Origin: Nocardioides sp.
Lineage (GTDB): Bacteria > Actinomycetota > Actinomycetes > Propionibacteriales > Nocardioidaceae
Length of the DNA: 43,254 nt
Assembly (NCBI GenBank): GCA_025965335.1
Contig: JAOPXC010000265.1
Location: 1 to 43,254 of the forward strand
Direction: 5' to 3'
The first letter of the stretch is position 1. Every line of letters starts with the position of its first letter. The position numbers were made by a program, and so were the translations under genes. Below are positions 33,675 to 39,083 of this stretch, piece by piece. The notes under the pieces are model-generated. The model did not search any database, was not told where the DNA came from, and was given only the letters and a program-made list of their open reading frames with translations.

Positions 33675-35111
33675 CTACGCGAGGTTCAGACCTGGGTACA
33701 GCGGGTGCTTGTCGAGCATCTCCGCCGAGGCCTCCTTGACCTTGTCCGCCACGCCGTCGCCCAGGAGGTACGTCGCCTTGGACGGCCCGCCCGCCTTGGT
33801 CGTGCCCGGCCGAGTGTTCTGGAGCACGTGGACGATCAACTCGGCCACGTTGTCGAACTCGTCGTGGCCGAACCCGCGGGTGGTGAGCGCGGGGGTGCCG
33901 AGGCGGACGCCGGAGGTGTACCAGGCGCCGTTCGGGTCCGACGGGACCGAGTTGCGGTTGGTCACGACTCCGGCGTCGAGGAGCGCCGACTCGGCCTGCC
34001 TGCCGGTGAGGCCGAAGGACGTCACGTCGAGCAGCACGATGTGGTTGTCGGTGCCTCCGGTGACCAGCTTCGCATCCCGCTTGAGGAAGCCCTCCGCGAG
34101 CGACTTCGCGTTGTCGGCGATGTTCTGGGCGTAGGTCTGGAACGACGGCTGGCGGGCCTCGGCGAGCGCCACGGCCTTGGCCGCCATCACGTGCGACAGC
34201 GGGCCGCCCAGCACCATCGGGCAGCCGCGGTCGACGGAAGGCGCGAACTCCTCGGTGGCCAGCACCATGCCGCCGCGCGGGCCGCGCAGCGACTTGTGGG
34301 TGGTCGTGGTGACGATCTGGGCGTGCGGAACCGGGTCCTCGTCGCCGGTGAAGACCTTGCCGGCCACCAGGCCGGCGAAGTGGGCCATGTCCACCATCAG
34401 GGTGGCTCCGACCTCGTCGGCGATCTCGCGCATCTTGGCAAAGTTGATCCGACGGGGGTACGCCGAGTAGCCGGCCACCAGGATCAGCGGCTTGAACTCC
34501 CTCGCCTTGGCGGCGAGCGCGTCGTAGTCGAGGAGCCCGGTCACCGGGTCGGTGCCGTACTGCTGCTGGTGGAACATCTTGCCGCTGATGTTCGGGCGGA
34601 AACCGTGCGTCAGGTGGCCACCGGCATCCAGGGCCATGCCGAGCAGCCGCTGGTTGCCGAGCTCGTGGCGCAGGGTCTCCCACTGCTCGTCGGTCAGGTC
34701 GTTCACGTTCTTCGCCGCGAGCTTCTCGAGCGCGGGCGACTCGACCCGGTGGGCGAGGATCGACCAGAACGCCACCAGGTTGGCGTCGATGCCGGAGTGG
34801 GGCTGGACGTAGGCGTACTCCGCGCCGAACAGCTCCCGCGCATGCTCGGCCGCGATCGACTCCACGGTGTCGACGTTCTGGCAGCCGGCGTAGAAGCGGT
34901 GGCCGACGGTGCCCTCGGCGTACTTGTCGCTCAACCAGCTGCCCATGGTCAACAGCACCGCGGGCGATGCGTAGTTCTCGCTGGCGATCAGCTTCAGCGA
35001 CGCGCGTTGATCGACAAGTTCCTGCCGAGTGGCCTCCGCGATGCGGGGCTCGACCGAGGCGATGACCTCGAGGGCTTGCTGGTACGCGCTGCTGATGAGG
35101 GCATCCGTCAT
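33675..35111 (-). CDS. glyA: Serine hydroxymethyltransferase
   Basis: PLP enzyme interconverting serine and glycine with tetrahydrofolate. Conserved blocks: [52 protein letters not shown] and [15 protein letters not shown] with PLP lysine K273. At 478 aa it is longer than the usual 415-435 aa; the extra residues lie after the [15 protein letters not shown] block ([20 protein letters not shown] and following), an insertion I recall from some actinobacterial forms. ATG 35111 ([14 protein letters not shown]) is the family start; the frame upstream is not coding. Weak ribosome-binding site. No glycine or THF riboswitch was recognised in front of it. Confidence 0.95.
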
Positions 35112-35219
35112 GCGGCCCAGCGTAGTGAGGCGGATGCACGCTGAGGCGATACGCACCGAAGCGTCCAGAATGTGACGTGGGCCGCACGAACCGAGTCGGC
35201 AGGCGCAGGTACGGCCACT

Positions 35220-35293
35220 GTGTCTCACATTATGGATCCGTGTCTCATTCCATGGGATTTCGCCTTGTGAGAGAGCCGTCCGAGCCGTGAGAC
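35220..35293 (+). promoter_or_regulatory. Promoter-region repeats upstream of the cysteine leader
   Basis: GTGTCTCA occurs at 35220-35227 and 35240-35247, exactly 20 bp (two helical turns) apart, each followed four bases later by ATGG. An inverted copy GTGAGAC lies at 35287-35293, opposite GTCTCAC at 35222-35228. These AT-richer sequences lie between glyA and the sulfur operon and are likely activator/repressor sites or promoter elements. A TTGACA at 35297-35302 abuts the leader start. Confidence 0.5.
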
Positions 35294-35301
35294 TGCTTGA
35301 C

Positions 35302-35391
35302 ATGACCTCCGCTGCGACTCCTGTCTTCCTCGTGGTGCGTCGCCACGTGGACCTCGGGCGCACCCGCAGCATGATGTGTTGGCCCTACTGA
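35302..35391 (+). CDS. Cysteine-operon leader peptide (29 aa, attenuator uORF)
   Basis: A 29-codon frame [20 protein letters not shown], then TRSMMCWPY and TGA. The RRHVDLGR core followed by a cysteine near the end matches the small 'putative leader peptides' I recall upstream of sulfur-assimilation operons in actinobacteria; in mycobacteria related cysteine-containing uORFs mediate attenuation. One Cys codon (TGT, 35377-35379) lies four codons before the stop, and a strong hairpin begins three bases after the stop. sirA starts 135 bases further on. Expected role: ribosome pausing at the Cys codon when cysteine is scarce changes the leader fold and raises sirA-cysH expression. Confidence 0.75.
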
Positions 35392-35393
35392 CC

Positions 35394-35416
35394 GTCGTCT
35401 GACTCGAGCAGACGAC
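35394..35416 (+). promoter_or_regulatory. Leader hairpin after the cysteine uORF (candidate attenuator)
   Basis: GTCGTCTG-actcgag-CAGACGAC is a perfect 8-bp stem with a 7-base loop whose loop contains CTCGAG. It starts three bases after the leader stop codon, so a ribosome finishing the leader peptide would cover part of it while one stalled at the Cys codon would not reach it. No T tract follows, so either Rho-type termination or masking of the sirA ribosome-binding site is possible. Confidence 0.6.
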
Positions 35417-35526
35417 CCGCCCGCCAGACCACCAGTCCCCGGGCGCCGGTCCGAAGGCCATCCCGACGATGAAGTCGGGCCCTGACGAGTCGCGCGTCTC
35501 CCCAACGCCAAGGGAAATCCTTCCTG

Positions 35527-37269
35527 ATGAACGACCTGCGCTACTCGGCCAAGCGTCCGACCCACACCGAAATCCCGCGTCCCAAGCGCGGCGAAGGACA
35601 GTGGGCGCTCGGCTACAGCGAGCCGTTGAACAAGAACGAACAGTCCAAGAAGGACGACAACCCGCTCAACGTCCAGGCGCGCATCCTCAACATCTACTCC
35701 AAGCGCGGTTTCGCCTCGATCGACCCCGCCGACCTGCGCGGCCGCTTCCGCTGGTTGGGCCTCTACACCCAGCGGGCTCCCGGCTTCGACGGCGGCAAGA
35801 CCGCGATGCTCGAGGAGGAGGAGCTCGACGACGAGTTCTTCATGATGCGGGTCCGCTCCGACGGCGCGCTGCTGTCCGCGGACGCCGTGCGCGCCTTCGG
35901 CACGATCGGCCAGGACTTCGCGCGGGACACCGCGGACGTCACGGACCGGGAGAACATCCAGTACCACTGGATCCGCATCGAGGACGTCCCGACGATCTGG
36001 GCGCGGCTCGAGGCCGCCGGGCTCACCACGATGGAGGCGTGCGGCGACTCGCCGCGGCCGTTCCTCGGCTCGCCGGTCGCCGGAGTGGCGAAGGACGAGA
36101 TCATCGACGGGACGGCGGCGCTGGAGGAGATCAAGCGCCGCTACATCGGCAACCCGGACTTCTCGAACTTCCCGCGCAAGTTCAAGACCGCGCTGACCGG
36201 CCACCCGGGGCACGACGTCTCCCCCGAGACCAACGACGTCTCCTTCGTGGGCACCGTCCACCCCGAGCATGGCCCGGGGTTCGACCTGTGGGTCGGCGGC
36301 GGCCTGTCCACCAACCCGATGCTGGCCCAGAAAATGGGCGTCTGGATCCCCCTCGAGGAGGTCGCCGACGCCTGGGAGGGCGTGGCGTCGATCTTCCGTG
36401 ACTACGGCTACCGCCGACTGCGCTCGCGCGCGCGCCTGAAGTTCCTGGTCGCAGACTGGGGCGTGGAGAAGTTCCGCGAGGTGCTCGAGAACGAGTACCT
36501 CGGCCGGAAGCTGGCCAGCTGCGAGTCGCCCGGCTCCCCGACGGGACACCGGGACCACATCGGGGTGCACGAGCAGAAGGACGGCAAGTTCTACGTCGGC
36601 GTGGCCCCGACGGCCGGGCGCGTGTCCGGGACCAAGCTGGTCCAGCTCGCCGACCTGATGGACGAGTACGGCGTCGCCGGTGCGCGGCTCACGCCGTACC
36701 AGAAGATCGTGCTGATCGGCGTCGACGCCGACGTGGTCGAGTCCCTCGTGCCGCGGCTCGACGCGATCGGCCTGTCGGCGCGACCGTCGAACTGGCGGCG
36801 CAACACGATGGCCTGCACCGGCATCGAGTTCTGCAAGCTGGCCATCGTCGACACCAAGGACCGGGCCCGCGACCTCGTGGCCGAGCTCGAGAGGCGGTTC
36901 CCCGACCTCGACGTGCCCATCACCGTGAACGTCAACGGCTGCCCGAACGCGTGCGCGCGCACCCAGGTCGCCGACATCGGGCTCAAGGGCCAGCTGGTGA
37001 TGTCCGACGGCCAGCAGGTTGAGGGCTTCCAGGTCCACCTCGGCGGCGCCACCGGCCTGCAGGCCAACTTCGGCCGAAAGCTCCGGGCCCACAAGGTGAC
37101 CAGTGCCGGCCTCGACGACTACGTCACCAACGTCGTCCGGTCCTTCCTGTCCGAGCGCGCCGAGGGCGAGTCGTTCGTCGAGTGGGTCGTCCGCGCGGAC
37201 GAGGATGTCCTGCGCGGCGAGGGTCTGGACAGGATCGACCAGCGAGATCTTGCGGTGGTGACCACGTGA
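35527..37269 (+). CDS. sirA: Assimilatory sulfite reductase (ferredoxin), siroheme [4Fe-4S]
   Basis: A 580-aa enzyme reducing sulfite to sulfide with six electrons. Two homologous halves: the first with FRWLGLYTQRAPGFDGGKTA, the second with FYVGVAPTAGRVSGTKLVQL. Cluster ligands are C430 and C436 (TMACTGIEFCKLA) and C472 and C476 (NVNGCPNACARTQ), the CX5C...CX3C pattern of siroheme reductases. The N-terminus RPKRGEGQWALGYSEPLNKN is typical of the actinobacterial SirA/NirA group; nitrite reductase is the main alternative, but the following cysH and chelatase genes favour sulfite. GTGA overlap couples it to the next gene. Confidence 0.95.
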   Translation: MNDLRYSAKRPTHTEIPRPKRGEGQWALGYSEPLNKNEQSKKDDNPLNVQARILNIYSKRGFASIDPADLRGRFRWLGLYTQRAPGFDGGKTAMLEEEELDDEFFMMRVRSDGALLSADAVRAFGTIGQDFARDTADVTDRENIQYHWIRIEDVPTIWARLEAAGLTTMEACGDSPRPFLGSPVAGVAKDEIIDGTAALEEIKRRYIGNPDFSNFPRKFKTALTGHPGHDVSPETNDVSFVGTVHPEHGPGFDLWVGGGLSTNPMLAQKMGVWIPLEEVADAWEGVASIFRDYGYRRLRSRARLKFLVADWGVEKFREVLENEYLGRKLASCESPGSPTGHRDHIGVHEQKDGKFYVGVAPTAGRVSGTKLVQLADLMDEYGVAGARLTPYQKIVLIGVDADVVESLVPRLDAIGLSARPSNWRRNTMACTGIEFCKLAIVDTKDRARDLVAELERRFPDLDVPITVNVNGCPNACARTQVADIGLKGQLVMSDGQQVEGFQVHLGGATGLQANFGRKLRAHKVTSAGLDDYVTNVVRSFLSERAEGESFVEWVVRADEDVLRGEGLDRIDQRDLAVVTT

Positions 37270-37463
37270 GCGAGCGAGGCATCCCGTTCCACTGCCCCTA
37301 CTGCGGCGACGAGGACCTGCGACCCCACGAGGTGGTGTCGGAGACCGGCGAGATCACCTCGCCGCACGGCTCGTGGGAATGCCGGTCATGCCTGCGCGCT
37401 TTCTCCCTGAAGATGCTTGGCCTGATCCGGGCGTCGTCCGCCAACCGGGGAGCGCCCTCATGA
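37266..37463 (+). CDS. 65-aa zinc-ribbon protein between sirA and cysH
   Basis: Starts at the GTG in GTGA shared with the sirA stop and ends overlapping the cysH start (ATGA), so translation of all three is chained. C10/C13 (FHCPYCGDEDLRPHE) and C39/C42 (WECRSCLRAF) form a zinc ribbon. A similar small protein occurs at this operon position in other actinomycetes, as I recall. It may assist cluster or sulfur handling by SirA/CysH, but no function is established. Confidence 0.82.
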   Translation: MSERGIPFHCPYCGDEDLRPHEVVSETGEITSPHGSWECRSCLRAFSLKMLGLIRASSANRGAPS

Positions 37464-38206
37464 CCGCCGCCACCACCACGTCCGCCCGTAACTACCGCGG
37501 CATCGAGACCGAGGGGCGCGCCCCTGAGGAGCTGCGCGAGCTGGTCTCCCACTGGGGCGCCGAGCTCGAGCTCGCCCCGGCGGAGACGATCATCGAGTGG
37601 GCGGCAGCGACGTTCGGCAAGCGCTTCTGCATCACCTCGTCGATGGGCGACGCCGCGCTGGCTCACCTCGCGGCGAAGGTGGTGCCCGGGATCGACGTGG
37701 TCTTCCTCGACACCGGCTACCACTTCATCGAGACGATCGGCACCCGCGACGCTGTCGCGGCCACGATGAACGTCAACCTGCTCTCGATCACCCCGGTGCA
37801 GTCGGTCGCCGAGCAGGATGCGGAGCACGGCAAAGACCTCTACAAGACCGACCCCGACCTGTGCTGCGCGCTGCGCAAGGTCAAGCCGCTCGCCGACTCG
37901 CTGGAGAACTACGACGCGTGGGCGACCGGGCTGCGTCGCGAGGAGACCCACAACCGCGTGATCGCGCCGGTGATCGGCTGGGACGCCAAGAAGGGCAAGG
38001 TCAAGGTCTCGCCGCTGGCGCGCTGGTCCGACGAGCAGATGGAGCGCTACATCGCCGAGAACGGCGTACTGGTGAACCCGCTCGTGTACGACGGCTACCC
38101 GTCCATCGGCTGCGCGCCGTGCACCCGCCGGGTCGCACCGGGCGAGGACCCCCGCAGCGGCCGCTGGGCCGGCACCAACAAGACCGAGTGCGGCATCCAC
38201 TCATGA
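37460..38206 (+). CDS. cysH: Adenylyl-sulfate (APS) reductase, CysH family
   Basis: A 248-aa reductase producing sulfite from APS with thioredoxin. Residues C135/C136 (DLCCALRKVKP) and C218/C221 (IGCAPCTRR) bind a [4Fe-4S] cluster, which marks the APS-using type rather than the cluster-free PAPS reductase of E. coli. Nucleophile C244 is in the C-terminal ECGIH motif. The N-terminal ATP-pyrophosphatase-like loop is ITSSMGDAALAHL. It sits in the coupled chain sirA - zinc ribbon - cysH and feeds sulfite to SirA. Start ATG 37460 overlaps the previous stop. Confidence 0.96.
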   Translation: MTAATTTSARNYRGIETEGRAPEELRELVSHWGAELELAPAETIIEWAAATFGKRFCITSSMGDAALAHLAAKVVPGIDVVFLDTGYHFIETIGTRDAVAATMNVNLLSITPVQSVAEQDAEHGKDLYKTDPDLCCALRKVKPLADSLENYDAWATGLRREETHNRVIAPVIGWDAKKGKVKVSPLARWSDEQMERYIAENGVLVNPLVYDGYPSIGCAPCTRRVAPGEDPRSGRWAGTNKTECGIHS

Positions 38207-38339: not shown

Positions 38340-39083
38340 ATGGCTGCTCCCGCACTGGTGGCCCTGGCTCACGGCAGTCGTGATCCCCGGTCCGCCCAGA
38401 CGATCACCGCCCTGGTTGGCGAGGTCCGCGCGATGCGCCCGGACCTTCGCATCGAACCGGCGTTCCTCGAGCTGTCCCGACCGTCATTCCAGAAGGTCGT
38501 CGACCGGCTCGTGAAGGCCGGCCACGACGAGATCGTCGTCGTACCCCTCCTGCTGACCGAGGCCTACCACGCCAAGGTCGACGTCCCCGGTGCGATCGCC
38601 GAGGCCGCTGCCCGGCACGAGGGCCTGCAGATCCGCGCCACGTCGATCCTCGGGCTCGAGCCGTGCTTCCTCGAGGTGCTGGACGTGCGGCTGCGCGAGG
38701 CGCTGAAGAACTCCCGTGTGCGGGAGCTCGATGCCCTCGTGCTCGCCGCGGCCGGCTCCAGCGACCCGCTCGCCAACCAGGCCGTCGCCCGCCTTGCCCG
38801 CCTGTGGGGCTCGCACCACAAGCTCCCCGTGACCGCGGCGTTCGCCTCGAGCGCCCCGCCGGCGACCGGTGAGGCGGTGCGGTTGTTCCGCGCGGAGGGT
38901 CGACGCCACATCGCGGTCGCCTCGCTGTTCCTCGCGCCCGGCTTCCTGCCGGACCGGGCGGCGGAGCTCGCCCTCGAGGCCGGTGCCGTCGCGGTGTCCG
39001 CTCCCCTGGGGGCTCACCCCGAACTGGCCCGGACGATGCTGGCCCGGTACGCCGTCGGAGCCGTCGAGCTGGTCCCCGTCTAG
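38340..39083 (+). CDS. cbiX: Sirohydrochlorin chelatase (CbiX/SirB-like)
   Basis: A 247-aa chelatase with GAGGAGG upstream of ATG 38340. The metal-binding start LVALAHGSRDPRS (H11) and IVVVPLLLTEAYHAKVDVPG form the first half; the second half repeats the fold (LVLAAAGSSDPLANQAV, VASLFLAPGFLPDRAAE), giving a two-domain CbiX. As the last gene of the sirA-cysH operon it most likely inserts iron into sirohydrochlorin to supply SirA with siroheme; cobalt insertion is the alternative. Confidence 0.92.
   Translation: MAAPALVALAHGSRDPRSAQTITALVGEVRAMRPDLRIEPAFLELSRPSFQKVVDRLVKAGHDEIVVVPLLLTEAYHAKVDVPGAIAEAAARHEGLQIRATSILGLEPCFLEVLDVRLREALKNSRVRELDALVLAAAGSSDPLANQAVARLARLWGSHHKLPVTAAFASSAPPATGEAVRLFRAEGRRHIAVASLFLAPGFLPDRAAELALEAGAVAVSAPLGAHPELARTMLARYAVGAVELVPV

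Follow-up and report, generated by a model that had tools for sequence, protein, structure and literature searches.

A conserved leader ORF with a single UGU cysteine codon ahead of sirA-cysH in Nocardioides, a candidate cysteine-responsive leader

INTRODUCTION

Can a leader peptide with a single cysteine codon serve as a cysteine sensor? The question is raised by contig JAOPXC010000265.1 of the soil actinomycete Nocardioides sp. (assembly GCA_025965335.1), whose 43,254 nt were analyzed as a whole and are called the window here. Upstream of sirA and cysH it holds a short ORF, which the original prediction read as a cysteine attenuator. In the portions available, PMC9031893, PMC13236596, and PMC9094748 describe polycysteine leaderless short ORFs of Mycobacterium smegmatis as cysteine-responsive attenuators, and PMC4633059 describes conserved cysteine-rich upstream ORFs before cysA2. 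The accessible text of Seliverstov et al. (2005; PMC1262725) predicts leader peptides, with no terminators, for cys operons of Mycobacterium and Propionibacterium. The available part of PMC8079986 names eight S. lividans leader peptides, none for cysteine.

RESULTS

The leader ORF belongs to a known family and is nearly universal in the genus

The 29-codon ORF was found where it had been predicted (Table 1), with its Cys at codon 26, four codons ahead of the stop codon, and with one Cys codon rather than a polycysteine tract; a run of Cys codons is absent from the window leader. The leader would be the first element of a putative sulfur operon, with sirA, cysH, and the CbiX gene lying 3′ of it, all on the same strand. 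Because the NCBIfam matches of the sirA product fell under their cut-offs, its specificity for sulfite rather than nitrite rests on the neighboring genes. On the other side, the divergent hydroxymethyltransferase gene and the leader promoter share a common intergenic region.

Table 1. Features of the leader region and its neighboring genes in the window
Feature	Position	Strand	Remarks
Serine/glycine hydroxymethyltransferase, divergent	33675-35114	minus	upstream of leader
Tandem operator-like sites GTGTCTCA	35220-35257	+	copies at 35220-35227 and 35240-35247
Putative promoter	35265-35294	+	-35 TTGTGA (35265-35270), 18 bp, -10 GAGACT (35289-35294)
Cysteine leader ORF	35302-35391	+	ATG at 35302, stop TGA at 35389-35391, 29 residues
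Presumed sensing Cys codon, single TGT	35377-35379	+	TGT in 77/78 leaders
P1 outer strand, 5′, TGGCC	35380-35384	+	pairs with 35456-35460; predicted from fold
P1 inner strand, 5′, GACC	35390-35393	+	overlaps stop codon; pairs with 35448-35451; invariant in 14 rows
P1a hairpin GTCGTCTG / CAGACGAC	35394-35416	+	strands 35394-35401 and 35409-35416
P2, CGCCCG (35418-35423) / CGGGCG (35440-35445)	35418-35445	+	fold and covariation
P1 3′ strand GGTCCGAAGGCCA	35448-35460	+	predicted from fold
Hairpin CCCGAC / GTCGGG	35462-35479	+	
Conserved GACGAGTCGCGCGTC	35484-35498	+	alignment; possible alternative partner of 35440-35458
sirA Shine-Dalgarno AAGGGA	35510-35515	+	
sirA, siroheme sulfite/nitrite reductase	35527-37269	+	first structural gene; Pfam NIR_SIR
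cysH, (phospho)adenylyl-sulfate reductase	37373-38206	+	longest ORF, putative start; NF002537, 254.2 bits (cut-off 154)
CbiX-type chelatase (siroheme)	38340-39083	+	PF01903, 1.1e-43

The proposed kinship with mycobacterial cysteine leader peptides was borne out by matches, below cut-off, to two NCBIfam leader families. Residues 9-28 of the window peptide correspond to positions 2-21 of 21 in NF042936 (Ms4527A; E = 6.2e-5; 22.5 bits versus a cut-off of 45), a family whose name we take to point to the M. smegmatis sirA-cysH operon, and residues 8-21 to positions 1-14 of 19 in NF042934 (cis_reg_atten; E = 3.6e-4; 20.1 bits versus 27). The NF042936 cut-off was exceeded in 0 of 59 genomes of the genus, with a match at E <= 0.01 in 48 of the 59. 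When NF042934 was run on eight peptides, two Streptomyces sirA leaders passed (32.9 and 37.8) and the window failed, so that the cut-off splits one series of homologous loci. Leaders of these two families have a Cys-rich tail, whereas the window leader has one Cys. As judged from these matches, the leader is of a known kind, the actinobacterial cysteine leader peptide.

Against an alignment of leaders that included its own peptide, the leader frame scored E = 1.6e-17, and a leader stood ahead of sirA in 78 of 79 loci; the ORF is therefore not a chance one. The 79 are the window plus 78 of the 80 loci found with SirA, since L017 and L055 begin inside sirA and were left out. An ATG or GTG lies at the expected distance in 77 of these leaders; the remaining one, L071, is a peptide without such a start, in which FVDL replaces HVDL. 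At L049 (Nocardioides jejuensis), operator and promoter are kept and the whole leader ORF is lost. The original prediction called for conservation of the Cys codon among relatives, and a Cys was present at the same place in 78/78 leaders upstream of sirA (the script required a Cys anywhere in the tail, and the sole failing locus, L049, lacks the entire ORF). From core to stop, the 78 leaders contain one or two Cys codons.

Searches with an alignment of 31 leaders covered 215 genomes of the genus, of which 211 had the leader, and 120 genomes of the family, of which 113 had it, spread over 23 of 26 genera (own genome included in both counts). Four genomes of the genus (G119, G026, G168, and G179) gave no leader match at E <= 1e-3; together with L049, they are possible natural leader-less cases. 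Leaders also lie ahead of sirA in Streptomyces and Kribbella loci. The window's own assembly, which is 85% complete, held one clear leader copy (next best match, 0.116), and a second clear one was not found in it.

Many genomes of the genus gave two or three leader matches. We read 19 weaker matches from 12 genomes (L141 to L159; four other weak matches had no locus), and all 19 held a short ORF with an [HA]VD core followed by a Cys, near the middle of the locus or, in L141, near its start, with cores such as KRRAVDHCR and RRHVDLC. The window's leader is therefore one of a set in the genus. Pfam assigned the gene that follows five of these leaders: L145 precedes a DUF4395 protein, L148 a PALP enzyme of cysteine-synthase type, L155 a rhodanese, L149 a sodium:dicarboxylate symporter, and L142 a flavin reductase. 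Several of the genes preceded by such leaders belong to sulfur metabolism, and DUF4395 goes together with rhodanese. At L153, a rhodanese gene lies ∼640 nt 3′ of the leader, and the closest relative that the window's assembly has to this sulfurtransferase shares only 33% identity with it. The second leader type, KRRAVDHCR, resembles the Ms5788A leader (NF042933; 39.3 bits, cut-off 45) and differs from the window leader in its core and in the operons it precedes.

A putative promoter is placed for leaderless transcription

The two copies of GTGTCTCA are spaced at exactly 20 bp, as predicted, and the second falls within 35243-35257, an imperfect palindrome of the form TCTCA-n5-TGGGA. When 169 relatives were aligned on the leader ATG, 105 had TCTCA and 31 had TCTCA-n4-6-TGAGA, and adjacent TCTCA copies were 20 apart in 30 of 37 spacings. 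These operator-like sites are partly kept in relatives and, in our reading, would belong to transcription initiation.

An ungapped alignment on the leader ATG showed that TTGtgG and TGAGACT are kept, with GAGACT at -13 to -8 from the ATG in 130 of the 169 relatives. The original prediction had taken the GTGAGAC at 35287-35293 for an inverted operator half; the motif is present, but it overlaps this conserved GAGACT and is therefore better read as a -10 element. Because a strict sigma-70 consensus scan of 35100-35560 returned no promoter, the promoter call rests on conservation. The -10 box lies 7 nt ahead of the leader ATG, in register across relatives, a position from which the transcript is probably leaderless and starts at the leader ATG.

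Selection changes character at a UGU codon

The conserved Cys codon is UGU in 77 of the 78 leaders, against 16 of the 426 Cys codons that the sirA genes at these loci contain. We fetched 120 further regions and dropped one without a recognizable sirA start (L264), which gave a total of 172 distinct leader-spacer sequences; 171 of these have UGU at the leader Cys. Selection was compared in the 150 distinct leaders with three codons between Cys and stop. In the twelve core codons, pairwise nucleotide differences at codon positions 1/2/3 were 0.103/0.048/0.222, as against 0.412/0.362/0.256 in the three post-Cys codons, where amino acids vary while single bases stay, for example the last base before the stop codon. 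Selection thus looks peptide-like up to the Cys codon and RNA-like past it. The leader sequences are related, so that these counts are not independent events. Taken together, these comparisons indicate that the leader is real and under selection.

These features bear on a reading by translational coupling, in which the leader mainly supplies ribosomes to sirA and neither its peptide nor its Cys codon has a sensing role. Coupling of leaderless small ORFs to the next gene is discussed for mycobacteria in the available part of PMC4633059. However, spacers from leader stop to sirA of 40 to 215 nt across loci (135 nt in the window) are long for coupling, which would also leave Cys conservation, the UGU preference, and the peptide-type selection unexplained. 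We regard coupling as very unlikely.

The leader end co-varies with the sirA ribosome-binding site

We paired the stretch from Cys to stop (plus up to 8 nt) with the 26 nt ahead of sirA in all 172 leaders; sirA starts were chosen by script, and at least that of L185 looks misassigned. Own pairs gave a mean duplex energy of -13.29, compared with -11.78 for permuted pairs (0/5000 permutations), and the signal held in 101 representatives under 75% identity (0/5000). The leader core, used as a control, gave a null result against the same ribosome-binding site (RBS; 2060/5000). By spacer class, the counts were 0/5000 for 97 short and 34/5000 for 75 long spacers; with a shorter RBS stretch they were 356/5000 (35 short spacers) and 243/5000 (42 long). 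Pairing of the leader end with the mid-spacer was also nonrandom (0/5000). The effect per locus was modest: for 36 of the 172 leaders, the true pair with the RBS ranked in the top tenth of the row. Particular bases go together: of 86 leaders with CGC before the stop, 62 have CAGCG near the RBS, versus 5 of 64 without CGC, and TCC before the stop accompanies GTCAAGGA in 11 of 32 versus 0 of 118. On these permutation tests, the leader 3′ end is seen to co-vary with the sirA RBS. Pairing of leader codons with a Shine-Dalgarno (SD) box has been proposed for the LEU element before leuA in the accessible text of PMC1262725, which differs in having leucine codons and a pseudoknot.

We modelled the folding of 169 of the 172 loci, assuming a ribosome footprint that reaches 15 nt upstream and 11 nt downstream of the A-site codon. 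In the 94 short-spacer loci, a stall at Cys reduced the predicted cost of SD opening from a mean of 4.46 to one of 3.58 kcal/mol, an average gain of 0.87 kcal/mol (more than 0.3 lower in 50 loci and more than 0.3 higher in 16; p = 6e-6). A stall six codons earlier brought no gain (4.54 kcal/mol versus 4.46 without a ribosome), and stalls three codons earlier (3.91; p = 0.11) or at the stop (3.55; p = 0.95) were not distinguishable from the Cys stall in these loci. In 46 other long-spacer loci, the cost went from 4.43 to 3.64 (gain, 0.80), compared with 3.99 for a stall six codons earlier (difference, p = 0.21). In the 29 loci of the window's motif class, it stayed about the same (3.50 to 3.40; +0.10, p = 0.9), as it did in the window itself (5.65 to 5.50 kcal/mol). 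A coarse early test on 76 loci gave a mean RBS accessibility of 0.440 without and 0.486 with the stall (window, 0.476 and 0.472). For the short-spacer relatives, and not for the window, the models thus support an RNA structure that masks the RBS and would be opened by a stalled ribosome.

A classical trp-type transcription attenuator calls for an intrinsic terminator, and no hairpin with a U run was found in 35100-35560 (0 terminator-like sites). Termination could instead depend on Rho: once the ribosome has gone, the C-rich spacer would bind Rho, and transcription would end before sirA unless a stall or structure prevents it. Such a role was raised for mycobacterial cys leaders in the available text of Seliverstov et al. 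(2005; PMC1262725), and the lack of an intrinsic terminator in 35100-35560 suits it. The C-over-G excess between leader stop and sirA, seen at 77 loci, resembles Rho loading sites. In these 77 spacers C is abundant and G is scarce (mean C, 0.454; mean G, 0.261), which makes Rho a serious rival; equally skewed nearby windows of the same length, on both strands, made up 1.2% at the median and 4.0% for our window, against a background of surrounding, mostly coding DNA rather than of other 5′ leaders. On the other hand, Rho does not explain the co-variation of the leader end with the sirA RBS, and a ribosome stalled at Cys would leave most of the spacer uncovered. On balance, we think termination by Rho improbable, though worth keeping in view.

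In the window's clade, the leader end is predicted to close a three-way junction

The original prediction placed a perfect 8-bp hairpin after the leader ORF. This hairpin (P1a) is present, with a loop of 7 nt and 110 bases between it and the sirA ATG at 35527; the gap between stop codon and hairpin measures two bases instead of three. When the 135-nt spacer was shuffled 1000 times with its dinucleotides preserved, 19 of the shuffles had a perfect stem of at least 8 bp, and the hairpin alone is therefore only modestly unusual. As an attenuator hairpin it stood in part: the stem is conserved with two-sided changes in the clade, but it appears as an arm of a three-way junction and not as a lone structure.

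We folded 31 loci, namely 29 recognized by a sequence motif, minus L011 and L019, plus L036, L051, L206, and L260 chosen by eye. In these, the window among them, the leader end, from the Cys codon to a little beyond the stop, is predicted to pair with a downstream GGUC..AGGCC[A/G]AC or equivalent (P1). The pairing encloses two hairpins in 26 of the 31, of which P1a is the first, and one hairpin in five (L177, L042, L018, L028, and L020). In many relatives, the spacer is short and has no P1a, and the leader end would pair with the RBS instead. Compared with shuffles in 30 of the 31 loci (L020 was left out), the junction domain had a mean z of -3.19, with 29 of 30 loci below -1 and the window at -2.31. 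P1 averaged 12.5 pairs per locus versus 3.5 in shuffles and was matched by at most 3 of 60 shuffles in 20 of 30 loci; for the 9 P1 pairs of the window, the figure was 11 of 60.

A covariance model built from five close relatives and then nine was run on 61 sources and, at E <= 5e-4, had 14 matches in the sense orientation. Covariation was counted in alignments A8 (14 sense rows) and A6 (9 rows); antisense rows occur in A5 and make up 5 of 25 in A7, which was set aside for that reason. In the 14 rows, 88.9% of cells pair and two-sided changes occur in 11 of 27 pairs (3/500 shuffles do as well); the covariation score was 0.243, compared with 0.086 in shuffles (0/500 reach it) and at most 0.063 when slid. 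Two-sided changes fell in 6 of 7 modelled pairs of P1a, 3 of 6 of P2, and 2 of 14 of P1, and 7 of the 14 modelled P1 pairs never vary in these rows. The compensatory changes that had been expected in the 35394-35416 stem were thus found in the window's clade. P1 hardly varies, so that covariation is stronger support for the arms than for P1, and an alignment fitted to the structure, as this one was, favors such a result. Given MAFFT alignments of 22 long and of 28 short spacers, RNAalifold predicted no pairs.

The junction could also be a metabolite riboswitch in its own right, with the ORF secondary. It is strongly folded in the predictions, its arms covary, and Rfam offers no match: the window gave 0 gathering matches, and 35200-35600 one sR47 match (E = 0.81) far under the gathering score. 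However, P1 is built from the leader's own Cys-to-stop stretch, and we did not notice a conserved unpaired core. Across the 215 genomes of the genus, the junction model had matches (E <= 1e-3) in 14, once each and always at the sirA leader, in a search whose stricter filters lost weak matches, versus 211 of 215 for the leader. An independent riboswitch therefore seems extremely unlikely to us.

We also considered, and rejected, a four-segment switch in which the P2/P1 strand 35440-35458 would pair with GACGAGTCGCGCGTC near the SD. With a modelled Cys stall, this alternative helix rose from a 30-locus mean of 0.026 to one of 0.218 (19 loci gained more than 0.05, and 0 fell) and from 0.003 to 0.034 in the window; a stall at the stop raised it more (0.328; 30 loci). 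The helix was not above shuffled partners (mean z, -0.67 in 30 loci; window, +1.18), lying at or under 10/200 shuffles in only 6 of 30 loci, and its effect on the SD was mixed (14 better and 9 worse of 30). We retain this switch as no more than an idea.

DISCUSSION

We consider it likely that a cysteine-responsive ribosome-stalling leader controls sirA-cysH after transcription start. Transcription would start at the leader ATG, and ribosomes would translate the leader and reach its single rare UGU codon. With sufficient Cys-tRNA, the ribosome would pass UGU, terminate three codons on, and depart, leaving the UGU-to-stop stretch free to pair: directly with the sirA RBS in most relatives, and in the window's subtype with GGUC..AGGCCA some 55 to 80 nt on, which would close the three-way junction. 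Under a shortage of Cys-tRNA, the ribosome would stall with UGU in its A site and cover this stretch, so that no pairing forms and sirA translation rises. In the window, the junction would have to act on the sirA start, and folding predicts no change in RBS exposure there.

A ribosome covers about the next dozen nucleotides past its A-site codon. A ribosome stalled at Cys would thus cover the codons engaged in P1 or in pairing with the RBS; together with the Cys codon, the choice of UGU, and the RNA-type selection after Cys, this fits the stalling model. Stalling, the response to cysteine, and the direction of the effect are what we infer, from leader conservation, UGU preference, selection, and covariation as they emerged in comparison with relatives. 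A similar principle is said to operate in M. smegmatis, where Canestrari et al. reportedly described in 2020 that stalling at Cys codons of polycysteine leaderless short ORFs opens RBS-hiding RNA.

Tentatively, we further suggest that LVxRRHVD.GRxRS is an arrest peptide that sensitizes the ribosome, so that one UGU is enough, and that the readout passes through the three-way junction closed by the Cys-to-stop stretch; we hold this extension to be possible but doubtful. If it is true, the arrest peptide would be an amplifier that replaces the polycysteine run.

Compared with the M. smegmatis polycysteine attenuators, as described in the portions of the literature available, the window's leader is likewise a short ORF, predicted to be leaderless, with cysteine genes downstream. 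It differs in its single UGU, in the strong peptide conservation upstream of that codon, and, in the window's subtype, in a leader end predicted to pair with a mid-spacer strand in a three-way junction and not with the RBS. The cys leaders in the accessible text of PMC1262725 are also short ORFs ahead of a cys operon that lack a terminator, but they have runs of Cys codons, and conserved hairpins were not found there. The available part of PMC11133741 holds nothing on such leaders. In text searches with most subscription journals outside their scope, the sole match to RRHVDL was an unrelated paper, and the titles and starts of abstracts among the matches listed named no single-Cys leader or such a junction. 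The leader family is known; its one-codon, RNA-junction form is new. What is new comprises the UGU preference, the switch from peptide to RNA selection at Cys, the co-variation of the leader end with the RBS, and the junction closed by the leader end.

The finding ties one leader, near-universal in the genomes of the genus and family that were examined, to a testable design, a peptide code up to UGU and an RNA code after it. It would let annotators recognize single-Cys leaders that now fall under the NCBIfam cut-offs. It also raises the question of why a sensor of a single amino acid needs a conserved peptide, and offers a place to test whether the nascent peptide helps in tRNA sensing.
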